Source of the DNA: Gimibacter soli
GTDB lineage: Bacteria; Pseudomonadota; Alphaproteobacteria; Sphingomonadales; Kordiimonadaceae
Direction: 5' to 3'
Length of the DNA: 64,000 nt
Assembly (NCBI RefSeq): GCF_028463845.1
Contig: NZ_CP116805.1
Span: 2,666,001 to 2,730,000, forward strand
Part shown: positions 21,177 through 33,293 of the stretch, piece by piece
Layout: every line of letters begins with the position of its first letter
Numbering within the stretch: position 1 is the stretch's first letter
The notes under the pieces: model-generated
What the model saw: the letters and a program-made list of their open reading frames with translations, nothing else
Told to the model about the DNA's origin: nothing
Database searches by the model: none
Made by a program: the position numbers and the translations under genes

Positions 21177-22358
21177 TCAGGCGCCGCGCCGGATCGGGAA
21201 ACGGCGCCAGTAACCTTCCACATCGCCGCCATCGAAGGCGTTGCCATCGAACGGCATGGCCGCCATGCGGCGACCCGCGTTTGTGCGGCTGCCAGCATCC
21301 TGCCGGCCAATGCCGTCCATGATGGTGGTATCGAAAATCGCGCTGACCTCTTCTTCGTGCCCGGCACCGGCCTGCCCCCAGCGCCGCATCTGGGCAAGGA
21401 GCCAGAGGCCTGCTTCGGCATAGGGATAGCCAAGATCAAGCCCACCGAAGGACAGATAATCGGCAACCGGCTGGCGCGTCTCGCCGGGCACCAGCCGGGG
21501 CGCGCACATCAGGCCGCCAAGGATCACCTCGCGGTCGGTATCCAGATAGTCAGGCCCGGCCAGCATGTCGGCCAGTGCATTGCGGTTTGCCGGTTGTGCC
21601 GCCCAGCGCATGGCGGCCACACAGGCGGCCACAAGCCGCGACACTGTCTCGGCATGCCCCGTGGCCCATGACCGCCGCAGTGCCAGCACCTTTTCGGGGC
21701 TGTAGGGATAGAGATCAGCTTTGGTGGCCATGATGCGCCCGATGCCTTCCTCGACTGCCAACTGGCTCCAGGGTTCCCCCACGCAGTAGCCGTCGATCTG
21801 ACCGGCCCGCAGCGCCTCCACCATCTTCGGCGGTGGCACCACGGAAAGTTCCACATCCTGATCGGGATCGACCCCGCCGTGGGCGAGCCAGGCGCGGAGT
21901 TCATAACTGTGGCTTGAATAGGCATGCACGCTGGCCAATCGAAGCGGTGCTTCCCCCGCCGCCCGCCGCGCCTGCACGACAGCGGCAAGCATGGCGGCCG
22001 ACTGGGCGCGGTCGAAAATCACCCTGCCCTTCATCAGGGCCCGGGCTTCCTCATACAGCGCAACCGAGATGGTGATGGCATTGCCACCGCGCCCGAGGAG
22101 AAGCGGCACCATCATTTCGGACCGAAAACCGCCAAGCCCCAGATGCATGGCCAGCGTCAACCCGCCGAGCATATGGGCACATTCAAGCTTCTCGAACGCC
22201 AGCTGGTCGCGTACTGCCGCCCACGACGGCAGGCGCACGGGCTCGATCCTGATGCCTTCTTCAAGGTCAAGGCCCAATTCGCGCGCCACCACAATGGGGG
22301 CGCAGTCGGTGAGCGCGATGAAGCCGGCGCGGATAACGGGGAGGTTGGCTTCAGGCAT
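21177..22358 (-). CDS. nasS: NasS-type nitrate/nitrite sensor (NrtA-like, cytoplasmic)
   Basis: This 393-residue protein is related to the periplasmic nitrate-binding protein NrtA, with shared motifs such as GYCVGEPW and AQMRRWGQ, but has no signal peptide, so it acts in the cytoplasm. In known NasS-NasT systems it binds NasT when nitrate and nitrite are absent and releases it when they are present. Its ATG at 22358 lies 8 bp inside the end of nasT, so the two are translationally coupled and made together. Being last in the nrt operon, before the porin, it is probably part of an autoregulatory loop. Confidence 0.9.
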   Translation of the reverse strand: MPEANLPVIRAGFIALTDCAPIVVARELGLDLEEGIRIEPVRLPSWAAVRDQLAFEKLECAHMLGGLTLAMHLGLGGFRSEMMVPLLLGRGGNAITISVALYEEARALMKGRVIFDRAQSAAMLAAVVQARRAAGEAPLRLASVHAYSSHSYELRAWLAHGGVDPDQDVELSVVPPPKMVEALRAGQIDGYCVGEPWSQLAVEEGIGRIMATKADLYPYSPEKVLALRRSWATGHAETVSRLVAACVAAMRWAAQPANRNALADMLAGPDYLDTDREVILGGLMCAPRLVPGETRQPVADYLSFGGLDLGYPYAEAGLWLLAQMRRWGQAGAGHEEEVSAIFDTTIMDGIGRQDAGSRTNAGRRMAAMPFDGNAFDGGDVEGYWRRFPIRRGA

Positions 22359-22965
22359 GGTGGCGGTCTCCGAGTAAGCCGGCATCCAGCTCAAAGGCCG
22401 TGATGATGCTGTCGGCGATATCGACAATCTTGCGGCTCTGCTGCATGGCGGTGCGGCGCATCATGCTGTAGGCCTCTTCTTCCGTGATGCCGCGATACTG
22501 CATCAGAAGCCCCTTGGCGCGGTTGATGCGCTTGATATCGGCAAGGGCCGTGCGGGCCTCGTCGCGTTCGCGCAATAGCTGACTGAAGCTTTCAAAGCGG
22601 GTCACCGCCACTTCGACAATCGGGCGCACACGGTCCTTCTTCAGGCCGTCAACCACATAGGCGCTGACGCCAGCCTCGACCGCGCGCCTGATGGCGTCGT
22701 CGTCCGACTGGTCAACGAACATGGCAATCGGCTTTTTCACCGAGCGCGACACCTGGAACATGTTTTCCAGCGTGTCGCGGTCGGGGTTCTGCAGGTCGAT
22801 GATGATCACATCGGGTTCGATGGCCACGATACGCTGGTGCAGGTTCGCCGTTGTTCGCAGCGTCACCACATGGGTGTAGCCAGCCTCAACAAGCGCCCCT
22901 TCAAGGAGCGCGGCGCGGGCCGGATCCTCGTCGATCACCAGAATATTGAGGCCGGTTCCTGCCAT
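22351..22965 (-). CDS. nasT: NasT-type response regulator with ANTAR RNA-binding domain
   Basis: This 204-residue protein has a receiver-like domain at about residues 5-125 (NILVIDEDPARAALL) and a C-terminal ANTAR domain at about 140-190 with IKRINRAKGLLMQ and the Ala-x3-Arg-x-Ala core in AYSMMRRTAMQ. ANTAR proteins of the NasT/NasR type bind paired hexaloop hairpins in leader RNA and prevent terminator formation. Matching hairpin-terminator leaders occur in front of nrtA and nirB in this window. It starts immediately after the ATPase stop codon (TAAATG) and overlaps nasS. Confidence 0.93.
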   Translation of the reverse strand: MAGTGLNILVIDEDPARAALLEGALVEAGYTHVVTLRTTANLHQRIVAIEPDVIIIDLQNPDRDTLENMFQVSRSVKKPIAMFVDQSDDDAIRRAVEAGVSAYVVDGLKKDRVRPIVEVAVTRFESFSQLLRERDEARTALADIKRINRAKGLLMQYRGITEEEAYSMMRRTAMQQSRKIVDIADSIITAFELDAGLLGDRHHA

Positions 22966-24675
22966 TTACGCTGCGGTCCTCCGCTTGGGGGTCGGTTTGC
23001 TTTCGGCGTCTGCGGGGTCGCCGTGCTCGTAGGCTTCAAGGAAGGACAAAAGTTCTTCCCTGTATTCATAATATTTCGGATGCCCAACGAGATCACGGCG
23101 GCGGCGCGGCCGGGGGATATCGATCTCCATGATATTGCCGATCTTGGCGTTCGGGCCGTTGCTCATCATCACGCAGCGGTCGGCCAGAAGGATCGCCTCG
23201 TCCACATCATGGGTCACGCAGATGGCGGTCACCTGTGTGCGCGCCCAAACATCCATCAGCACTTCCTGCAAGGCCCAGCGGGTAAGGCTATCCAGCATTC
23301 CGAAAGGCTCATCCAGAAGCAGCAGCTTCGGCGACAGGGCAAAGGCACGGGCGATGCCGACGCGCTGGCGCATGCCGTTCGACATTTCAGCCGCTGGCTT
23401 GTGCATGGCGTCGCCAAGCCCGACGCGGGCGAGATAATATTCGATCACATCGCGCTTCTCGGCCGCCGTCGCGTGCGGATAAACACGGTTGACGCCCAGC
23501 GCCACATTCTGGAAGGCGGTCAGCCACGGCATCAGGCTCGGCGCCTGAAACACCACGGCGCGCTCCGGCCCCGTGGAGATGACCTGACGCCCATCAAGGA
23601 TCACACCGCCGGCGCTGATCGAGGTCAGCCCCGCCGCCATATTGAGGACGGTGGATTTGCCGCAGCCCGAATGGCCAATGAGCGTGATGAACTCGCCCTT
23701 TTTCATCTTCAGGTCAAAGCCATCGACGATGGTGAGCGGTCCTTTCGGCGTGTCATAGACCTTGGAGATTTGCGAAAACTCCACATAGCGATCCACACGC
23801 GGGCTCGCCGCCGCCTCGCGGTATGCTTTCGGTGCCCGGCCGATCTCGATGGGTGCGATGGTCGGCAGGATGCCTTCTGCCGCCTGCCGTGCGGCGTTCG
23901 CACCTTTTTCAGCTTCGATCAGGAAGCTTGTTACATCGGCCCGAAGCTTCACGAAGCCTGCATCATGGTTCATCGCGGACCGCAGGCGCGGGCGCGGGAT
24001 ATCCACCTTGAAGGCAGGCCCCAGCGTGGCTTCCGGCCCCGGTGTCAGCGGGATGATCCGGTCAGCCAGCAGGATCGCCTCGTCCACATCGTTGGTGATC
24101 AGGATCACCGTCTTGCGGTCCTTCGCCCGGATCGCATCCAGCTCGTCCTGCAATTTGGCGCGGGTGAGCGCGTCGAGTGCCGACAGGGGTTCATCCAGCA
24201 ACAGGATTTCCGGATCCATCGCCAGTGCGCGGGCCACCGCCACGCGCTGGCGCATGCCACCCGAAAGCTCGTGGGGTTTGCGGTCGCGGGCATGGGTAAG
24301 GCCGACCATATCGATATAGCGGTCAACCCGCGCCTGCCGGGCCACCTTGTCTTCGGTGCCGAAAAGGCTATCGACCGCCAGCGCGATATTGCCCGCGACC
24401 GTCAGCCACGGCATCAGCGAATAATTCTGGAACACGACGCCCCGGTCAGGGCCGGGGCCGGTGACCGGCGTGCCATTCATCGTGATGCTGCCGCGTTCGG
24501 GCTTCACAAGGCCCGAGATCAGCGAGATGAGAGAGGTTTTGCCCGCGCCCGAAAAGCCGACGATGGCCAGAAATTCGCCTTCCTCGATGGCAAGATTGAT
24601 ATCCCGCAGCACAGGGGTACGCCCCCTGCCCTTGCCGTAGGAAAATGCAACGTCCTTGAGTTCAAGATGTGCCAT
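22966..24675 (-). CDS. Nitrate ABC transporter ATPase, two ATPase domains fused (NrtC/NrtD-like)
   Basis: This 569-residue protein carries two complete ABC ATPase domains in one chain. Domain 1 (about residues 1-255) has Walker A GFSGAGKTS, signature LSGGMRQR and Walker B ILLLDEP. Domain 2 (about 290-550) has Walker A GHSGCGKST, signature MSNGMRQR and Walker B LLLLDEP. Both belong to the nitrate/sulfonate/taurine ATPase group. A single gene therefore supplies both nucleotide-binding subunits, unlike the separate nrtC and nrtD of cyanobacteria. It lacks the binding-protein-like tail of cyanobacterial NrtC. GAGGGGG precedes the ATG at 24675. Confidence 0.92.
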   Translation of the reverse strand: MAHLELKDVAFSYGKGRGRTPVLRDINLAIEEGEFLAIVGFSGAGKTSLISLISGLVKPERGSITMNGTPVTGPGPDRGVVFQNYSLMPWLTVAGNIALAVDSLFGTEDKVARQARVDRYIDMVGLTHARDRKPHELSGGMRQRVAVARALAMDPEILLLDEPLSALDALTRAKLQDELDAIRAKDRKTVILITNDVDEAILLADRIIPLTPGPEATLGPAFKVDIPRPRLRSAMNHDAGFVKLRADVTSFLIEAEKGANAARQAAEGILPTIAPIEIGRAPKAYREAAASPRVDRYVEFSQISKVYDTPKGPLTIVDGFDLKMKKGEFITLIGHSGCGKSTVLNMAAGLTSISAGGVILDGRQVISTGPERAVVFQAPSLMPWLTAFQNVALGVNRVYPHATAAEKRDVIEYYLARVGLGDAMHKPAAEMSNGMRQRVGIARAFALSPKLLLLDEPFGMLDSLTRWALQEVLMDVWARTQVTAICVTHDVDEAILLADRCVMMSNGPNAKIGNIMEIDIPRPRRRRDLVGHPKYYEYREELLSFLEAYEHGDPADAESKPTPKRRTAA

Positions 24676-24686
24676 TTGCCGCCCCC

Positions 24687-25775
24687 TCACCGCTGTGCCC
24701 GGCTGGTGACCAGCGCTTCAAAGGCGAGCATCAGGCGGTCCAGAAGGAAGCCGATGATACCGATGGTGAAAACGGCGACCATGATGCGAGCGAGCGAGCT
24801 TGATGACCCGTTCTGGAATTCGTCCCACACGAATTTGCCAAGGCCCGGATTCTGGGCCAGCATTTCGGCGGCGATCAGCACCATCCAGCCAACCCCCAGC
24901 GAAAGGCGCATGCCGGTGAAGATGAACGGCAGGGCCGAAGGCACGATCAGCTTGCGCACCTGCACGCCGGGCGACAGGCGCAGCACGCGGCCGACATTCA
25001 GGAGGTCCTTGTCGATCGAGGCCACCCCCATCGACGTATTGATCAGCGTCGGCCACAGCGAGCAGAGCGTGACAGTGATGGCAGACGTGAGGAACGCCTT
25101 ATCGAACAGCGGATCGTCGCTCACATAAAGCGCACTGACCACCATTGTGACAATCGGCAGCCAGGCCAGCGGCGACACCGGCTTGAAAATCTGCACCAGC
25201 GGATTGATCGCTGCATTCATCGATGGCGACAGGCCACCGATGATGCCGATGGGAACGGCCACGAGCGTAGCAAGCAGGAAGCCCATGAAAACGGTCTGGA
25301 TGCTTGTCCATATCTGGTCGAAATAAGTCGGCTTGCCGGTATAGGGGTGGATTTTCGGCTCGTAGGACGGGTCTTCCGCAACCCGCGCCTCGTTCCGTGC
25401 GTGCTGGCGTTCGTAGAATGCCTCTGCCTTCTCGCGTTCCGCCTTATGGCTGTCCACAAGCCCGCCGAAGGCTTCGGCTACCTGCGCCGGCCCCGGGATC
25501 GCCCCGAGGCTTGTATCCACCTTCGGCGCCATCTGGGCCCAGAGCCCGAGGAAGAGGATGATCGACGCGAGCGGAATGCCAAGGCCGCGCCACAGGGCTT
25601 TTAGCTGTGCCGAGGGATCCTCGCCGTTCGCCAGCCGCAACATCGGGGTGACCCAGCCGAAGCCGAAGATGGAGATATAACCGTCAATCCGCCCGATCAG
25701 CAGGCCGCGCTGCGCCTGCGCAGCCTTGCGGGCGGCGCGGGCGAGTTCGGGATCGTTCTTCACCGTCGCATTCAT
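24687..25775 (-). CDS. nrtB: Nitrate ABC transporter permease
   Basis: This 362-residue inner-membrane permease has an unusually long cytoplasmic N-terminal part, a first helix at about residues 68-88, a hydrophilic periplasmic stretch near 95-150 and then five or so helices forming the BPD-type permease domain (GFLLATLVAVPIGIIGG, then FKPVSPLAWLPI). It fits the nitrate/bicarbonate NrtB/CmpB group. Its ATG lies 1 bp past the nrtA stop and its stop is 11 bp before the ATPase, so nrtA-nrtB-ATPase form one transporter operon. Confidence 0.92.
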   Translation of the reverse strand: MNATVKNDPELARAARKAAQAQRGLLIGRIDGYISIFGFGWVTPMLRLANGEDPSAQLKALWRGLGIPLASIILFLGLWAQMAPKVDTSLGAIPGPAQVAEAFGGLVDSHKAEREKAEAFYERQHARNEARVAEDPSYEPKIHPYTGKPTYFDQIWTSIQTVFMGFLLATLVAVPIGIIGGLSPSMNAAINPLVQIFKPVSPLAWLPIVTMVVSALYVSDDPLFDKAFLTSAITVTLCSLWPTLINTSMGVASIDKDLLNVGRVLRLSPGVQVRKLIVPSALPFIFTGMRLSLGVGWMVLIAAEMLAQNPGLGKFVWDEFQNGSSSSLARIMVAVFTIGIIGFLLDRLMLAFEALVTSRAQR

Positions 25776-25776
25776 G

Positions 25777-27180
25777 TCAGTTGCCTCCCGCTTGCGCAGG
25801 GGCCACGTCGTCCTTCAGGCCGATACTGAATTTGCGCAGATAAGCCGTCGGCGTTTTGCCGTTGAAGGCGATGCCATCGATGAAATGGGTTTGCGGTGCG
25901 CGGTAGCCATCCGTGTCCCACGGGAAATCCTCTTCCCGTGCCTTGCCTTCCTGCACGAGAAGCCGTGCAGCTTTCAGGTAAATTTCAGGCTGATAGACCT
26001 TGCGGGCGACCTCGTCATACCAGGCATCCGGTTTCGCTTCGCCGATCTGCCCCCAGCGGCGCATCTGGGTGAGATACCAGACAGCGTCGGAATAATAGGG
26101 ATAGGTAGCAAAATAGCGGAAGAAGACGTTGAAATCGGGCACATCGCGCTTGTCGCCCTTTTCATATTCAAACGTCCCGGTCATCGAATTGGCGATCACG
26201 GCGGCGTCCGCCCCCACGTAAGCGGGCTTTGCCAGCATTTTCACCGCTTCCTGCCGGTTGGCATTGCCGTTCGCGTCCAGCCACATGGCCGCGCGGATCA
26301 GCGCCTTGACGACAGCGAGATGCGTGTTCGGATATTTCTTCGCCCATTCGGCTGAAACACCGAACACCTTTTCCGGGTTGTTCTTCCAGATTTCATAATC
26401 GGTGACGACCGGCACACCGACGCCCTTGAACACCGCCTGCTGGTTCCAGGGCTCGCCAACGCAATAGCCGAAGATGGTGCCCGCCTCCATCGTCGCCGGC
26501 ATTTGCGGCGGCGGGGTCACGGACAGCAGCACTTCGGCGTCCGTCGTGCCTGTCACATCACCCGTCGTATAATAGCCCGGATGGATGCCGCCAGCAGCGA
26601 GCCAGTAGCGCAGTTCATAATTGTGGGTCGAAACGGGGAAGACCATGCCCATCTTGAAAGGCTTGCCTTCGGCCCGGTACTGCTGAACCACCGGCTTCAG
26701 ATAATCCGCCTTGATCGGATGCACGGGCTTGCCATCCGCGCCCATGGGTACATGTTTTTTCATCGCTGCCCAGACCTCGTTCGACACGGTGATGCCGTTG
26801 CCATTGAGGTCCATCGAAAAGGCGGTGACGATATCAGCCTTGGTGCCAAAGCCGATGGTGGCGCCAAGCGGCTGGCCCGCCAGCATGTGAGCACCATCCA
26901 GCTCGCCCGAGATCACCCGGTCCAGGAGCACTTTCCAGTTGGCCTGCGCCTCAAGCGTCACATAAAGCCCCTCGTCTTCAAAATAGCCAAGCTCATAGGC
27001 CACCGCGAGGGGGGCCATGTCGGTCAGCTTGATGAAACCGAGGGTCAGGGTTTCCTTCTCCGGCCAGAGATTGTCGGCCGCGGCCGGCAGCCCGAAGCCG
27101 CAAACAAGGGCCGCGAGCGCCGCAACGCGGCGGCATGTGCCGGCAATTCGTTTGCTGATGTCAGTCGTCTTTCCTTGCAT
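25777..27180 (-). CDS. nrtA: Nitrate-binding periplasmic protein
   Basis: This 467-residue NrtA/CmpA-family binding protein has an N-terminal signal peptide ending near residue 36 (GLPAAADN). It carries the family features [40 protein letters not shown] and LTQMRRWGQ. It should capture nitrate or nitrite in the periplasm and deliver it to NrtB. GGAGGA lies about 5 nt before the ATG. Upstream on the same strand are a sigma-54 promoter, hexaloop hairpins and a terminator, so expression should need both nitrogen limitation and nitrate. Confidence 0.93.
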
Positions 27181-27241
27181 CCTATCCTCCGAAAGCCTTG
27201 TCTCTGCCTCGAATGATCGATGCGTCGATCAGTCGAAGGCC

Positions 27242-27289
27242 AAAAGCCGCTGCCTTCATGCGGACGAACCCGTCCAGAAGCTTGCAGCG
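27242..27289 (-). terminator. Leader terminator of the nrtA operon (attenuator)
   Basis: On the minus strand a stem of CGCTGC/GCAGCG extends into CTTC/GAAG past a small bulge and encloses a GGAC/GTCC hairpin. It is followed by CTTTTG. It lies between the hexaloop hairpins at 27299-27340 and the nrtA start at 27180. The short U-tract makes it a moderate terminator. Its position matches the attenuators that NasT-type proteins overcome. Confidence 0.6.
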
Positions 27290-27298
27290 ATGTCTTTC

Positions 27299-27340
27299 GA
27301 CCCTCCGTTGGATCGGAAACCTGGTGCGCCTTCATCGGCG
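27299..27340 (-). promoter_or_regulatory. NasT-responsive hairpin pair in the nrtA leader
   Basis: The minus-strand leader can form two small hairpins. The first (27340-27327) is CGCC-GATGAA-GGCG with a 6-nt loop. The second (27314-27299) is GATCC-AACGGA-GGGTC, a 5-bp stem with one G-U pair and a hexaloop with A1 and G4, the ANTAR target signature. The second hairpin is almost the same as the one at 27751 in the nirB leader (loop AACGGC). The first loop has G4 but not A1, so it is a looser fit. Both lie between the predicted start near 27347 and the attenuator. Confidence 0.7.
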
Positions 27341-27357
27341 ACCGACAGGGGATAACG

Positions 27358-27374
27358 AGCAAAGCGCGTGCCAA
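27358..27374 (-). promoter_or_regulatory. Sigma-54 promoter of the nrtA operon
   Basis: The minus strand reads TTGGCACG-CGCT-TTGCT, a full match to the sigma-54 consensus YTGGCACG-N4-TTGCW, with the invariant GG and GC twelve bases apart. It predicts transcription starting near 27347, about 165 nt before nrtA. This implies activation by an enhancer-binding protein such as NtrC. I could not identify a clear NtrC site. Confidence 0.85.
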
Positions 27375-27426
27375 GGGAACACGCCGCAGCAGCGCCGGGG
27401 CACGCTTGGCGTCAGGGGCTACCTGC

Positions 27427-27452
27427 AAAAACCGCAGGCCCCTGCGGGTTTT
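27427..27452 (-). terminator. Intrinsic terminator upstream of the nrtA promoter
   Basis: A stem CCGCAG/CTGCGG with 4-nt loop is flanked by A5 on one side and GTTTT on the other. On the minus strand it ends in TTTTTG, and it can also work weakly on the plus strand. It sits 50 bp upstream of the nrtA sigma-54 promoter, so it probably insulates the promoter from stray transcription rather than acting in the leader. Confidence 0.55.
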
Positions 27453-27580
27453 CTTGCTGCATAGCAACACAAAAATTGTTTCAATCGCCTCAGGAAGATG
27501 GGCCCACCATCCGGAATCAGCACTATTCCCGGCCGCCTTTCATGCTGCGGCGCATCTAATTTATTGACTATTTTTTGTTC

Positions 27581-27601
27581 ATTGATTATTTTTTAATCAA
27601 T
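27581..27601. repeat. AT-rich inverted repeat between the nitrate operons
   Basis: Arms ATTGATTA/TAATCAAT surround five T residues inside a strongly AT-rich stretch (about 27557-27601). It lies between the two divergent sigma-54 promoters, where DNA bending or an upstream activator site would be expected. It does not match the IHF or NtrC consensus well, so its role is unassigned. Confidence 0.4.
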
Positions 27602-27613
27602 TCAGTCGGCATT

Positions 27614-27641
27614 TGCAGCCACCATCACACGATGGCCTGCA
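27614..27641. repeat. Imperfect inverted repeat upstream of the nirB promoter
   Basis: TGCAG and CCTGCA flank a 5-bp stem CCATC/GATGG with loop ACAC. It begins about 87 bp upstream of the nirB sigma-54 promoter, in the range where an enhancer-binding protein could bind. It is not a good NtrC consensus match. Confidence 0.3.
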
Positions 27642-27700
27642 GGCCGGCAGATGGCAGGATCACAGGGCTTCCGCGCCAATATGCCCCCTCGGGCCCGGCG

Positions 27701-27716
27701 TGGCATGCTCCTTGCT
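27701..27716 (+). promoter_or_regulatory. Sigma-54 promoter of the nirB operon
   Basis: TGGCATG-CTCC-TTGCT matches the sigma-54 consensus with GG and GC twelve bases apart. It predicts transcription from about 27727, some 150 nt upstream of nirB. The start is 6 nt before the first leader hairpin, consistent with a functional leader RNA. Confidence 0.85.
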
Positions 27717-27732
27717 GATCCTTCCCTTCACA

Positions 27733-27766
27733 GGCACCCGATTTGCCACCGACCCAACGGCGGGTC
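27733..27766 (+). promoter_or_regulatory. NasT-responsive hairpin pair in the nirB leader
   Basis: Two adjacent hairpins start at about +7 of the predicted transcript. Hairpin 1 (27733-27747) is GGCA/TGCC with a 7-nt loop. Hairpin 2 (27751-27766) is GACCC-AACGGC-GGGTC, a perfect 5-bp stem with a hexaloop having A1 and G4, the signature recognised by ANTAR antiterminators. The match of hairpin 2 to the nrtA leader hairpin (27299-27314) argues for a shared regulator, presumably NasT encoded at 22351. The loop of hairpin 1 is one base longer than the usual six. Confidence 0.75.
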
Positions 27767-27776
27767 ATTTCAGGAT

Positions 27777-27826
27777 AACGACGTCCAGGGCCACAGCCAT
27801 CAGGCTGGCGGGCGGATGTCGTTTTT
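27777..27826 (+). terminator. Leader terminator of the nirB operon (attenuator)
   Basis: A 10-bp stem AACGACGTCC/GGATGTCGTT (one G-U pair) encloses a GCC/GGC and AGCC/GGCT hairpin and is followed directly by a run of five T. It begins 10 nt after the hexaloop hairpin and ends 53 nt before nirB. Transcription should stop here unless NasT binds the upstream hairpins. Confidence 0.85.
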
Positions 27827-27878
27827 CACCTCCCCCTCCTTCCACCGGCACCCCTGGACCAGCCAAGTGGAAGCGACC

Positions 27879-30326
27879 ATGACAAAGTCCAAGAAACCCA
27901 GACTGGTGATTGTCGGCAACGGCATGGCCGGCATTCGCACGCTCGAGGAGCTGTTGAAGCGCGCGCCGGATACCTACGATGTCACGGTGTTCGGGCAGGA
28001 GCCGCGCCTCAATTATAACCGCATCATGCTGTCTCCCATCCTCGCGGGCGAAAAAGCCTATCAGGATATCATCCTCAACGACTGGGACTGGTACGAAGCC
28101 AATAATATCCGCCTGCATGCGGGTGACCCGGTCATCGGGATCGACCAGAAGCGCGGGTTCGTCTTCTCCGCTGCCGGACGCAAGGTGGCTTACGACAAGC
28201 TATTACTCGCCACCGGCTCGGAGCCCATCGTCATTCCCGTGCCCGGCCACAAAAAGAACGGCGTCATCACCTTCCGCGACATGAAGGACGTGGAAACGAT
28301 GATCGACGGCGCCGGGCGCCTGCAACATGCTGTGGTAATCGGCGGCGGGCTGCTGGGCCTTGAGGCGGCTTACGGCCTCTCCACGCTCGGCATGAAGGTC
28401 ACCGTGCTGCATCTGGCCCCGCACCTGATGGAACGCCAGCTGGATACCGCAGCCGGCACACTGCTGAAGCAGGAACTGGAACGCCGCGGGCTCGATATCA
28501 TCCTTGAAGCCGATACCGCCGAAATCACCGGCGACGACCGCGTTGAAGGCGTGCGACTGAAGGATGGCCGCAGCTTCCCGGCCGATCTTGTGGTGATGGC
28601 AGTGGGTATCCGCCCCAACACATGGCTTGCGCGTTCGCACGGGCTCGCCACCGGGCGCGGCATCCTGGTGGACGATCACATGATCACCTCCAACCCCGAC
28701 ATTCTGGCGATCGGCGAATGCGTCGAGCATCGCGGCCTATGCTACGGCCTCGTCGCTCCCATATGGGATATGGCGCGGGCCGCTGCCGACACGCTCGCCG
28801 GGTCAGACGGCAAGGGTTATCAGGGCTCGGCCATCTCTACAAAGCTCAAGGTCACCGGGGTCGATCTTTTCTCGGGCGGTGATTTCTCGGGCGGCAAGGG
28901 CACCGAGGATATCGTGTTCCGCGATGCCGCCCGCGGCGTTTACAAGCGGCTTGTGGTGAAGGAAAACCAGCTGATCGGCGCCGTCCTTTACGGCGATACG
29001 GGCGACGGCCCCTGGTATTTCCAGATGATCAAGGACGGCACCGACATCACCCCCTTGCGCGGCACCATGGCCTTTGGCCAGGGCTTCGAGGAGGGGGCGC
29101 TTTCCGACCCTTTTAAGGCGGTCGCGGATCTGCCGGCAGATGCCGAGATCTGCGGCTGCAACGGCGTCTGCAAGGGCACCATCCAGACGGCGATCACCGA
29201 AGGCGGCCTCACCTCGCTTGCCGAGGTTCGCGCCCACACCAAGGCCTCGTCTTCCTGCGGGTCCTGCACCGGGCTTGTCGAAAAACTGATCGGCTTCACG
29301 CTGGGTGATGGCTATGTGGCCGACAGCGGGCCGAAGCCCCTTTGCGGCTGCACCTCGCTCGATCACGGCGAAGTCCGCCGGCTGATCGTCGCCAAAGGCA
29401 TCAAGGATATCCCGAGCGTGTTTCAGGCACTGGAATGGCGCACGCCGGATGGCTGCCATACCTGCCGCCCTGCCGTGAACTATTATCTCCTCTGTGCCTG
29501 GCCCGGCGAATATCAGGACGACGCCCGCGCCCGCTTCATCAATGAACGCGTCCACGCCAACATCCAGAAGGATGGCACCTATTCCGTGGTGCCGCGCATG
29601 TGGGGCGGCGTCACATCCGCGAAGGAACTTCGGGCCATCGCCGATGTGGTGGACAAGTTCAATATCCCGACCGTGAAGGTGACAGGCGGCCAGCGGATTG
29701 ACCTTCTTGGCATCAAGAAGGACGACCTGACCGCCGTCTGGGCTGATCTGGGCGCTGCAGGGATGGTTTCGGGTCATGCCTATGGCAAGTCGCTGCGCAC
29801 GGTGAAAACCTGCGTGGGGACCGACTGGTGCCGCTTCGGCACGCAGGACAGCACCGGGCTCGGCGTGAAGCTTGAACATGCCACCTGGGGCAGCTGGATG
29901 CCCCACAAGTTCAAGATGGCGGTTTCGGGCTGCCCCCGCAACTGCGCCGAAGCCACGATCAAGGATTTCGGCATCGTCTGTGTGGACAGCGGCTACGAGC
30001 TGCATGTCGGCGGCAACGGAGGCATCCATGTGCGCGCCACCGATCTTCTCTGCAAGGTTACAACGGAAGAAGAAGCCATCGAATATTGCATGGCCTTCAT
30101 CCAGATGTACCGCGAGGAAGCCTGGTATCTGGAACGCACCGCCCCCTGGATCGAGCGGGTGGGGATCGACCATATCCGCGACCGACTCACCAGCGACTCC
30201 GAGGTGCGCATCAAGCTGCGCGATCGTTTCCTCCTGAGCCAGAAGGATGCGCAGGATGACCCGTGGGCGGCGCGCGCCAAGGGCGTTGACGCCCATGAAT
30301 ATCAACTTCTTGCGACGATTGGATGA
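27879..30326 (+). CDS. nirB: Assimilatory nitrite reductase, large subunit
   Basis: This 815-residue NirB reduces nitrite to ammonium with NAD(P)H. It has an N-terminal FAD/NAD module (VIVGNGMAGIRTLEELL; GGGLLGLEAAYGLS near residue 155). Two BFD-like [2Fe-2S] regions follow (CGCNGVCKGTI...SSCGSCTG near 425-465, and a second Cys cluster CGCTS...CHTCRP near 488-530). The C-terminal sirohaem/[4Fe-4S] half has TCVGTDWCRFGT and SGCPRNCAEA supplying the four Cys. GGAAG lies 5 nt before the ATG at 27879. An in-frame upstream extension to 27651 covers the leader hairpins and is not coding. It is followed 4 bp later by nirD. Confidence 0.96.
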   Translation: MTKSKKPRLVIVGNGMAGIRTLEELLKRAPDTYDVTVFGQEPRLNYNRIMLSPILAGEKAYQDIILNDWDWYEANNIRLHAGDPVIGIDQKRGFVFSAAGRKVAYDKLLLATGSEPIVIPVPGHKKNGVITFRDMKDVETMIDGAGRLQHAVVIGGGLLGLEAAYGLSTLGMKVTVLHLAPHLMERQLDTAAGTLLKQELERRGLDIILEADTAEITGDDRVEGVRLKDGRSFPADLVVMAVGIRPNTWLARSHGLATGRGILVDDHMITSNPDILAIGECVEHRGLCYGLVAPIWDMARAAADTLAGSDGKGYQGSAISTKLKVTGVDLFSGGDFSGGKGTEDIVFRDAARGVYKRLVVKENQLIGAVLYGDTGDGPWYFQMIKDGTDITPLRGTMAFGQGFEEGALSDPFKAVADLPADAEICGCNGVCKGTIQTAITEGGLTSLAEVRAHTKASSSCGSCTGLVEKLIGFTLGDGYVADSGPKPLCGCTSLDHGEVRRLIVAKGIKDIPSVFQALEWRTPDGCHTCRPAVNYYLLCAWPGEYQDDARARFINERVHANIQKDGTYSVVPRMWGGVTSAKELRAIADVVDKFNIPTVKVTGGQRIDLLGIKKDDLTAVWADLGAAGMVSGHAYGKSLRTVKTCVGTDWCRFGTQDSTGLGVKLEHATWGSWMPHKFKMAVSGCPRNCAEATIKDFGIVCVDSGYELHVGGNGGIHVRATDLLCKVTTEEEAIEYCMAFIQMYREEAWYLERTAPWIERVGIDHIRDRLTSDSEVRIKLRDRFLLSQKDAQDDPWAARAKGVDAHEYQLLATIG

Positions 30327-30330
30327 GCCG

Positions 30331-30681
30331 ATGGTTAAAGCATCCACCTTCACCCTTGTCGGCCAGCGGGACGATATTCCCCGCCTCGGATCGCGCCGCG
30401 TGCGCACCCCGGCGGGCGAGATCGCCCTTTTCCGCACCAGCGACGACAAGGTCTTCGCACTGAGGAACGAATGCCCGCACAAGAAGGGCCCCTTGTCCGA
30501 AGGCATCGTGCACGGGCACAGCGTTACCTGCCCCTTGCACAACTGGGTGATCAGCCTGGAGACAGGCGAGGCACAGGGCGCCGACACGGGCTGCACGGGC
30601 AAGCTTGCCGTCGAGGTGCGCGACGACGGCTCGATCTATCTGGCCATTCCTTCGGGCATGGCCGAGGCGGCGGTGGCATGA
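30331..30681 (+). CDS. nirD: Nitrite reductase small subunit, Rieske-type
   Basis: This 116-residue NirD has a Rieske [2Fe-2S] fold. Both ligand pairs are present, CPH (NECPHKKGPL) and CPLH (VTCPLHNW), so the cluster should be functional; some enterobacterial NirD proteins lack these ligands. It supports electron transfer in the NirBD complex. The ATG at 30331 lies 4 bp past the nirB stop. The last 4 bp overlap the nitrate reductase start (ATGA), giving tight coupling. Confidence 0.93.
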   Translation: MVKASTFTLVGQRDDIPRLGSRRVRTPAGEIALFRTSDDKVFALRNECPHKKGPLSEGIVHGHSVTCPLHNWVISLETGEAQGADTGCTGKLAVEVRDDGSIYLAIPSGMAEAAVA

Positions 30682-33293
30682 CAATCACAAGGACCACATG
30701 CGCCTACTGCGGGGTGGGATGCGGAATCATCGCCACCGAGATGGAAGGAGGGGTCCGGATCGAAGGCGACCCGTCTCACCCCGCCAACCGCGGCCGCCTG
30801 TGTTCCAAGGGACTGGCCCTCGGCCAGACGCTCGATCATGCTTCCCGCCTTGCCTTTCCGACCATCGATGGCGTGCGCGTTTCGTGGGATACCGCAACCC
30901 GCGCCGTCGCAGACCGGCTCACCACCGTTATCAACGAGCACGGCCCCGATGCGGTTGCCTTCTATGTTTCCGGCCAGTTGCTGACCGAAGACTATTATGT
31001 CGCCAACAAGCTGATGAAGGGCTTCATCGGCAGCGCCAATATCGACACAAACTCGCGCCTGTGCATGGCTTCAACCGTGGCGGGCCACACCCGTGCCTTC
31101 GGCGGCGATATCGTGCCCGGCGACTATGCCGACCTTGAAGAAGCCGATCTTGTGGTGCTTGTGGGCTCCAACCTCGCCTGGTGCCACCCGGTACTGTTCC
31201 AGCGCCTGCGAGCGGCCCGGGAGGCACGCGGTACAAGGGTGGTGGTGATCGATCCGCGCCGCACCGAAAGCTGCGATATCGCTGATCTCCATATCCCCGT
31301 GATGCCGGACGGCGACGTGCTGCTGTTCAACGGCCTGCTCGCCCATCTGGACGCCTGCGGCACCGCCCCTGCCGCCTTCACAGGCCATCATGTGGATGGC
31401 TATGCCGGTGCGGTCGCGGCCGCCCGCAGTGAAGCGCCAGCACTGGCCGCTGCCATCGCTACGCGCGGCATCGAGGCCGAGGTCGCAGCCTTCTACCGGC
31501 TGTTTGCGGCCACCGAAAAGGTGGTGACCGTCTTTTCCCAAGGCGTCAATCAGGCGCACAATGGCACCGACCGGGTGAATGCCATCATCAATTGCCATCT
31601 GGCGACCGGCCGTATCGGGCGACCCGGCATGGGGCCTTTTTCGGTGACCGGCCAGCCGAACGCGATGGGCGGGCGCGAGGTCGGCGGACTTGCCAGCATG
31701 CTTGCCGCCCATATGGGCTTTTCGGATCATGAATGCGATCTCGTGCAGGGCTTCTGGCAATCGCCCGCCATTCCCCGCGCGGCAGGCCTTCGCGCTGTCG
31801 ACATGTTCGATGCCGTCCATGACGGGCGTATCAAGGCGATCTGGATCATGGCGACCAACCCGGCGGTCAGCCTGCCGCAGGCCGCGAAGGTCCGCGAGGC
31901 ACTGGCCCGTTGCCCCACTGTAATCGTATCCGACTGCGTGAAGGATACAGACACACAGGCTTTCGCCCATATCCGCCTGCCCGCCACGGGCTGGAGCGAA
32001 AAGGACGGCACGGTCACCAATTCCGACCGCACGATCTCCCGCCAGCGTGCGTTCCGGGCCCCTTATGCCGAGGCACGGCCCGACTGGCAGATCATCTGCG
32101 ATGTGGCCACTGCTATGGGGCATGGTGCAGCCTTCGCCTATGAAAGCCCCGCTGACATTTTCCGCGAACATGCCGCCCTCAGCGCGCACCGCAACGAAGG
32201 CAGCCGCGCTTTCGATATTGGCGCGCTGGCCAACATAGGCGCCGCCGACTACAACACCCTCGCACCAACCAAATGGCCGCAGCGAGCGGGGGAGCGCAGT
32301 CAGACGCGGCTTTTCGGCAATGGCGCCTTCTTCACGCCGGACGCACGAGCCCGGATGGTCGCCCTTGATCACCGCCCCTCGCCTGCCGTCCCCTCGCCTG
32401 ATTATCCGCTTCTCCTGAACACCGGGCGCTACCGGGACCAGTGGCACACCATGACCCGCACCGGCCTCGCCCCCAGCCTGACCGGGCACAGGCCCGAGCC
32501 GCTGCTGGACGTTTCCCCCACGGATGCACGGTCGCACGGGCTCGCTGACAAAGGCTTTGCCACCGTCGCCAGCCCGCGCGGCCGTGTCGTCGTTCGTGTG
32601 CGGGTCACGGATGACCAGAAGCCCGGCGAGCTGTTCCTGCCCATGCACTGGTCCGAAACCCATGCGAGCGCTGCCCTTGTTGGCACGCTGATCGCGCCAG
32701 AGGTCGATCCCCTTTCCAAGCAGCCCGCCTTCAAGTCCACGGCGGTCTCCCTTGCCCCCGCCGCCATGTCATGGCGGGGGCTTCTTCTTTCCCGCTCGGA
32801 AATTGAAATCCAGATGCCCTACTGGACCCGGACCCAGCTGAAGCATGCGACGCTCACCCGCATAGCCGGCTACAGCGAGGCCGACTTCGCCGCGCTTCGC
32901 GCACGCCTTGAACAGGTCACCGGGGACACTGCCAGCATTGAAGACGGCACCGGCCTGCGGTTGGCCGGCTTTGAGAAGGGGCAACTCGCCTTCATCCTTT
33001 TCGCGGGCGAAAGCCTTGCCGGGATCGACCTCGGCTGGGCGGACAGCCAGTTTGAGGCTGCAAGCCTTGAGGATAGCGCTCGCCGCCAACTGCTCGCCGG
33101 CCGCAGCCCCGGCGCCGTGCGGGACACGGGCCCGGTCGTCTGCTCCTGCTTTCAGGTCGGCCAAAACACGATCCGCGATGCCATCTGCAAGGGCCGCCTG
33201 ACCAGTACCGACGGCGTTCGCGACGCCACCGGGGCCGGTGGCAATTGCGGCTCCTGCATCCCTGAAATCAAAGCCCTCATCGCCCGGGAGTAA
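30678..33293 (+). CDS. nasA: Assimilatory nitrate reductase catalytic subunit (molybdopterin, BFD tail)
   Basis: This 871-residue molybdenum enzyme reduces nitrate to nitrite in the cytoplasm. The N-terminal [4Fe-4S] ligands are Cys8, Cys11, Cys15 and Cys42 (CAYCGVGC; GRLCSKG). The bis-MGD catalytic domain follows, with NSRLCMAST supplying the likely Mo-ligand Cys near residue 138, and then the molybdopterin dinucleotide-binding domain at about 590-700. The last 60 residues form a BFD-like [2Fe-2S] domain (CSCFQVGQ...GNCGSC), typical of NasA/NasC types that take electrons from a flavoprotein or ferredoxin. No separate diaphorase gene is in the operon. Confidence 0.95.
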   Translation: MTITRTTCAYCGVGCGIIATEMEGGVRIEGDPSHPANRGRLCSKGLALGQTLDHASRLAFPTIDGVRVSWDTATRAVADRLTTVINEHGPDAVAFYVSGQLLTEDYYVANKLMKGFIGSANIDTNSRLCMASTVAGHTRAFGGDIVPGDYADLEEADLVVLVGSNLAWCHPVLFQRLRAAREARGTRVVVIDPRRTESCDIADLHIPVMPDGDVLLFNGLLAHLDACGTAPAAFTGHHVDGYAGAVAAARSEAPALAAAIATRGIEAEVAAFYRLFAATEKVVTVFSQGVNQAHNGTDRVNAIINCHLATGRIGRPGMGPFSVTGQPNAMGGREVGGLASMLAAHMGFSDHECDLVQGFWQSPAIPRAAGLRAVDMFDAVHDGRIKAIWIMATNPAVSLPQAAKVREALARCPTVIVSDCVKDTDTQAFAHIRLPATGWSEKDGTVTNSDRTISRQRAFRAPYAEARPDWQIICDVATAMGHGAAFAYESPADIFREHAALSAHRNEGSRAFDIGALANIGAADYNTLAPTKWPQRAGERSQTRLFGNGAFFTPDARARMVALDHRPSPAVPSPDYPLLLNTGRYRDQWHTMTRTGLAPSLTGHRPEPLLDVSPTDARSHGLADKGFATVASPRGRVVVRVRVTDDQKPGELFLPMHWSETHASAALVGTLIAPEVDPLSKQPAFKSTAVSLAPAAMSWRGLLLSRSEIEIQMPYWTRTQLKHATLTRIAGYSEADFAALRARLEQVTGDTASIEDGTGLRLAGFEKGQLAFILFAGESLAGIDLGWADSQFEAASLEDSARRQLLAGRSPGAVRDTGPVVCSCFQVGQNTIRDAICKGRLTSTDGVRDATGAGGNCGSCIPEIKALIARE

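Follow-up and report, generated by a model that had tools for sequence, protein, structure and literature searches.

The window analysed is the whole stretch of 64,000 nucleotides of Gimibacter soli DNA, corresponding to positions 2,666,001–2,730,000 of a single 3.59-Mb contig. The gap between nrtA (minus strand) and nirB (plus strand) is probably the divergent control region for nitrate assimilation, with the control regions of two operons placed back-to-back (Table 1). On the minus strand the gene order is nrtA, nrtB, the gene for an NrtCD-type double ATPase, nasT and nasS. NasT combines a receiver-like domain with the only ANTAR domain found genome-wide, and lies beside the NrtA-like sensor NasS (35–98% identity to relatives that adjoin NasT elsewhere); both proteins, which the initial annotation had assigned to one of the two operons, are encoded in the minus operon. 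NasT of Pseudokordiimonas caeni LB-31 (L032; same genus) is 100% identical over 204 aa. Because nasT begins right after the end of the nrtCD-type gene, nasTS almost certainly forms the end of the nrtA operon; a sigma-70 scan of 22900–23500 returned no internal minus-strand promoter for nasT. On the plus strand the start of nirB was placed at the ATG at 27880, which is preceded by GGAAG; nirB is followed by nasA, a siroheme synthase gene and then a MoeA/MobA fusion.

Table 1. Features of the nrtA–nirB region (window coordinates)
Feature	Position	Strand	Details
Gap between nrtA and nirB	27181-27879		
NasS nitrate-sensor homologue	21177..22427	-	Pfam NMT1_2; true start probably within ORF
NasT	22351..22965	-	Pfam Response_reg (receiver-like) and ANTAR
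NrtCD-type double ATPase	22966-24690	-	Pfam ABC_tran x2
NrtB permease	24687-25775	-	Pfam BPD_transp_1
NrtA-type periplasmic nitrate-binding protein	25777..27180	-	Pfam NMT1_2; first gene of operon
Predicted long hairpin, about 90 nt	27226..27315	-	contains both P1 arms
Anti-P1 segment	27226..27241	-	GGCCTTCGACTGATCG
Weak terminator-like core	27242..27290	-	TCGCTGC...GCAGCGG then CTTTT
Degenerate P2	27285..27292	-	C[ATCGCT]G
P1	27298..27315	-	cgatcc[AACGGA]gggtcg
P0 of nrtA transcript	27323..27343	-	GGTCGCC-GATGAA-GGCGCACC
Sigma-54 promoter, nrtABC-nasTS	27358..27374	-	TTGGCACGCGCTTTGCT; TGGCACGCGCTTTGCT at 27373-27358
Sigma-54 promoter (-24/-12), nirB-nasA	27701..27716	+	TGGCATGCTCCTTGCT
P0 of nirB transcript	27733..27747	+	GGCA-CCCGATT-TGCC
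P1	27751..27766	+	gaccc[AACGGC]gggtc
P2	27773..27786	+	ggat[AACGAC]gtcc
Intrinsic terminator	27777..27826	+	AACGACGTCC...GGATGTCGTTTTT
nirB-type nitrite reductase	27880..30326	+	Pfam NIR_SIR, Pyr_redox_2, Fer2_BFD; first gene of operon
nasA	30471-33293	+	downstream of nirB

Both operons are preceded by a sigma-54 promoter with GG at -24, GC at -12 and proper spacing, and RpoN is encoded in the genome; the near-perfect sigma-54 elements noted initially, one per strand, were borne out in position and orientation. The pattern TGGCAYGN4TTGCW has five matches in 3.59 Mb and the reversed control has four, so single matches mean little. Two of the five lie in the gap, each pointing toward its own operon, and real weight attaches to a pair of correctly oriented matches within 700 bp whose place is conserved in four species. 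Both sites are kept in four Kordiimonadaceae loci. Sigma-54 promoters have also been predicted upstream of nasT genes (PMC12316311). The gap was scanned with three consensus patterns for classical and Paracoccus-type NtrC sites, none of which matched above chance. As no classical NtrC dyad is recognisable, the nitrogen input is drawn from established sigma-54 biology; nitrogen control of both operons is plausible, and the proposed need for nitrogen limitation is backed by the encoded RpoN and NtrC equivalog and not by an NtrC site. Two further elements lie between the promoters. An AT-rich tandem 18-bp repeat midway between them (27560–27597; TTBATTGAYTATTTTTTR twice) is unique in the genome, is conserved in four species and is possibly an activator or IHF site. 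At 27427–27452, an inverted repeat rich in GC, with A- and T-runs at its flanks, is scored as a terminator on both strands, and is poorly kept in the relatives M2405 and HXMU1428-12.

Downstream of each promoter lies a P1 hairpin with an A1/G4 hexaloop, and the two, on near-identical stems, form an 18-nt inverted repeat (89%). Hairpins of P1 quality number two in the gap against 0.03 expected, and none of 300 shuffles contained two; the gap motifs are real beyond chance, and the observation of such hexaloops on both strands in the initial annotation stands. The 18-nt repeat would also be produced by a local inverted duplication without regulatory meaning. This is very improbable, since the likeness stops at the hairpin, both P1 hairpins are conserved in relatives, which already contradicts a mere duplication, and in rhizobial clusters NasT leaders occur separately, ahead of nrtA and again after nrtABC. 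The limits of the likeness and the separate rhizobial leaders point instead to shared recognition as the source of the P1 similarity.

Each transcript is also predicted to begin with a 5'-terminal hairpin, P0. In the nirB transcript it was obtained in the MFE fold and is not an ANTAR hexaloop; in the nrtA transcript its stem persists in M2405 and HXMU1428-12 despite base changes. A hairpin beginning only a few bases from where transcription is expected to start is common to most comparable alphaproteobacterial nas leaders; in the rhizobial set P0 usually precedes P1 by about 9 nt, and loops include TTCG, GCAA, CTCGC and ATCGTC. That P0 might generally serve as the first ANTAR hairpin was considered and rejected, its loop being in most cases a tetra- or pentaloop such as TTCG or GCAA. 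The noncanonical 'first hairpins', on account of which the initial annotation had suggested a variant ANTAR target, are most likely P0 of each transcript, with the ANTAR pair downstream, so that this reason falls away; the variant itself survives for the minus leader on other grounds (a degenerate P2) and is dropped for the plus leader, which is canonical.

In kind the plus leader is unremarkable; it belongs to the known two-hairpin class. RNA from about 27727 folds as P0, P1 and then a long terminator ending in five U (MFE -40.4, z -3.57; z -5.7 in a second folding analysis). The hexaloop hairpin and the terminator at 27777–27826 had both been recognised before and both stand; overlooked was P2, a second A1/G4 hexaloop hairpin with a stem of at least 3 bp and a linker of 6 nt from P1, within the usual range of about 5–12 nt. 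P2 overlaps the 5' arm of the terminator, so that the two folds exclude each other, and it is this second hairpin, so placed, that makes the leader canonical. Dual A1/G4 hairpins with stems of 4 bp or more occur three times on the two strands of the 64 kb, one instance being the nirB leader, and the P1–P2 pair also precedes nirB in P. caeni, M2405, HXMU1428-12, four Thalassospira and Tistlia.

A hold-out covariance model (R2) made from 16 leaders, among which this species and P. caeni were not represented but the nirB leaders of two relatives from the same family still were, gave the nirB leader 33.1 bits (E 4.3e-6 in the window, 2.4e-4 genome-wide). This was its only significant match in the 3.59-Mb genome (next best 19.8 bits); the nrtA leader was not significant to the two-hairpin model (14.6–17.1 bits, genome-wide E 6.3), so that comparison with an ANTAR model came out positive for the plus leader and negative for the minus leader. 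An Rfam gathering search of the whole window matched no family. The other covariance model matches in the genome, being below significance, were discarded as further NasT targets. In P. caeni two stronger extra matches, checked by ORF lists only, were treated as chance because one is contained in a 470-aa ORF and the other likewise falls within long ORFs that overlap. Sequence, conservation and the hold-out model strongly support the nirB leader as a canonical two-hairpin ANTAR attenuator and NasT target, in line with the NasT antitermination of nirB–nasA from a sigma-54 promoter that had been put forward; for a group that has received little study, this leader is a well-supported addition to the NasT targets.

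Once nitrate has dissociated NasS–NasT, the freed NasT binds the nasA leader, nitrate or nitrite being the releasing signal (PMC3795266), and a two-hairpin model describes ANTAR antitermination (PMC3369931). The model that we consider quite probable is a sigma-54 start of each operon combined with a canonical NasT attenuator at nirB and a leakier variant at nrtA. Each operon would start from its own promoter, presumably under nitrogen limitation. In the absence of nitrate NasS would hold NasT and the plus terminator would form; in its presence free NasT would bind P1 and P2 as the nirB leader emerges and would stabilise P2, which would prevent the terminator and let RNA polymerase read through to nirB–nasA.

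The minus leader is plausibly a variant of an ANTAR leader. The pattern GATCCAAYGRNGGGTC was found once each in four of the 398 genomes of the order and was absent from the other 394; all four matches are nrtA leaders of Kordiimonadaceae. P1 matches its plus-strand counterpart in quality and, stem and loop together, is the longest invariant leader block in the four species, although the sequence around it has diverged. In the four-species alignment P2 is reduced to an A1/G4 loop with a closing C–G pair and lacks a 3-bp stem (A.C and G.A mismatches past the closing pair; at most 2 bp in relatives, which have C[ACCGCT]G and C[ACGACT]G at this position). The closing C–G and A1 are present in 4/4 species and G4 in 3/4, and R2 does not score the element as a canonical P2; EutV contacts 3 bp of the P2 stem (PMC8934654). 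The terminator-like element, a 7-bp core followed by CUUUUGG, overlaps the P2 loop and is not reported by a simple terminator scan. Its U-tract, with four U here, is extended in HXMU1428-12 but lacking in M2405, and is thus kept in 3/4 species. The expected intrinsic terminator ahead of each first gene is therefore present on the plus strand and weak on the minus strand, and of the mirrored arrangement described for the two strands the order of elements holds, the quality of P2 and terminator does not.

Given the degenerate P2 and the uncertain terminator, NasT control of nrtABC–nasTS, and hence feedback on nasTS, is only probable. The initial annotation had both operons requiring nitrate, with NasT feeding back on its own operon; this fits nirB–nasA, and on the minus side it fits the conserved promoter and P1 but not P2 or the terminator. 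The same defects, together with the sub-threshold covariance score, would be expected if only nirB–nasA were under NasT attenuation and the nrtA leader had decayed to constitutive read-through under sigma-54 alone. We regard this as rather unlikely, as decay is hard to reconcile with the invariance of P1 in four otherwise diverged leaders and with the retention of A1, the closing pair and, in three species, G4 of P2. In the preferred model, with a leaky but functional leader, NasT most likely also promotes read-through at nrtA under leakier control, and would probably act on P1, helped by the P2 remnant; binding of NasR to a single hairpin is known and is about twelvefold weaker (PMC7496416). 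Leakiness would provide basal NasS/NasT and transporter, with positive feedback once nitrate is present; since the loop cannot start without basal NasT, a leakier leader ahead of nasTS would be a sensible arrangement. A nasTS pair behind an atypical leader would thus link leader strength to positive feedback.

The anti-P1 segment is complementary to both P1 arms, and in four species both arms are predicted to enter a long hairpin (z-scores -4.6, -3.8, -5.7 and -4.6), which is also the RNAalifold consensus (CGAUC paired with GAUCG, GRGGGUC with GGCYUYC). In stepwise folding the minus P1 is present while the terminator core is made and is zero at RNA lengths of 78–82 nt from the P1 start, just past the U-tract; in HXMU1428-12 it also dips earlier, at 46–58 nt. 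Of 42 other NasT leaders, two had a P1 of zero at 130 nt and a further three had values below 0.5. These folds are suggestive of a P1 that is dissolved just after the terminator is passed. P1 sequestration was not kept as a strong claim, being weakened by the shuffle control, in which 16–27% of shuffled downstream sequences also lost the minus P1. As, in addition, the basal helices of the long hairpin contain one pair only with a clear two-sided change, and two of the four species are near-identical (about three independent sequences), the sequestering hairpin is offered as a hypothesis.

If P1 is absorbed into the long hairpin once sequence past the terminator core has been transcribed, the NasT site of the nrtA leader would be transient. 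A tentative and on balance doubtful extension is a one-shot site, in which P1 would recruit NasT during the read-through decision and then dissolve as 27241–27226 emerges. Finished mRNAs of the NasT-encoding operon would then no longer hold NasT, and the architecture would be P1-competing, distinct from the known P2-competing one. The long hairpin may alternatively act post-transcriptionally, the switch between it and P1 serving mRNA stability (for example through RNase III cleavage) or NasT sequestration and not termination. M2405, which retains the long hairpin although its U-tract is lost, would fit such a role, as would a P1 dissolved on the full-length RNA. We nevertheless consider it improbable, and more so than a decayed leader: the pattern comes from four sequences only, the frequent loss of P1 in shuffled controls weakens it, three of the four species keep the U-tract, and the hairpin ends about 45 nt before the nrtA start codon, leaving the ribosome-binding site uncovered.

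As in the Paracoccus denitrificans nasABGHC system (PMC3795266, PMC5424462), there is a receiver-like/ANTAR protein NasT, a NasS sensor and hairpins before the structural nas genes, with nitrogen limitation and nitrate presumably acting here, too, at two levels. In P. denitrificans, however, nasTS is a separate upstream unit under NtrC, whereas here it is the tail of the nrtABC operon, which carries its own NasT-type leader. The nirB leader resembles those of the EutV and NasR antiterminators (PMC3369931, PMC7496416, PMC3369936) in its A1/G4 hexaloops in P1 and P2, short linker and P2–terminator overlap; the nrtA leader differs from them in that P2 is reduced to loop and closing pair, and in that the predicted competition with a downstream hairpin involves P1 as well as P2. 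A single NasT with paired leaders, of which the first is canonical and the second combines a broken P2 with a conserved P1, would offer a natural way of testing whether two hairpins are really required by ANTAR proteins, which the EutV–RNA structure left open. AmiR of the Pseudomonas aeruginosa amiECBRS operon (PMC3369936) is likewise an ANTAR antiterminator encoded with its ligand-binding partner in the operon whose leader it reads; there the signal is an amide and one operon is controlled, whereas here the signal would be nitrate, and a second, divergent operon would be under the control of NasT as well.

In the nas clusters of rhizobia (Mesorhizobium, Devosia and others) nrtA is likewise preceded by a sigma-54 promoter, P0, P1, P2 and a terminator, and at several loci a further leader of this kind follows nrtABC, so that the mirror arrangement is less special than it looks. 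The rhizobial leaders differ in that they are arranged in tandem on one strand, with nasTS ahead of the first, and in that those detected have a canonical P2. Other loci showed further arrangements. The nrtA leader of a Roseibium MAG (L099:9967-10025) has three consecutive A1/G4 hexaloop hairpins before the terminator and is a possible triple ANTAR site. NasT homologues with 68% identity (L116:3887-4489 and L117:4030-4641) lie near DsbD-like genes, in L116 also near a COX1-type oxidase; no NasS or nas genes were found around them within the surrounding 16 kb, and they are possibly orphan NasT proteins. At L115:1440-5928 NasST adjoins cytochrome bd oxidase genes, and no nas structural genes were found on the contig. 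In a groundwater proteobacterium (L087:1-9703), nrtABC, nirB, nasA, nasT and nasS lie in a row on one strand, which may be another case of nasTS inside its own regulon.
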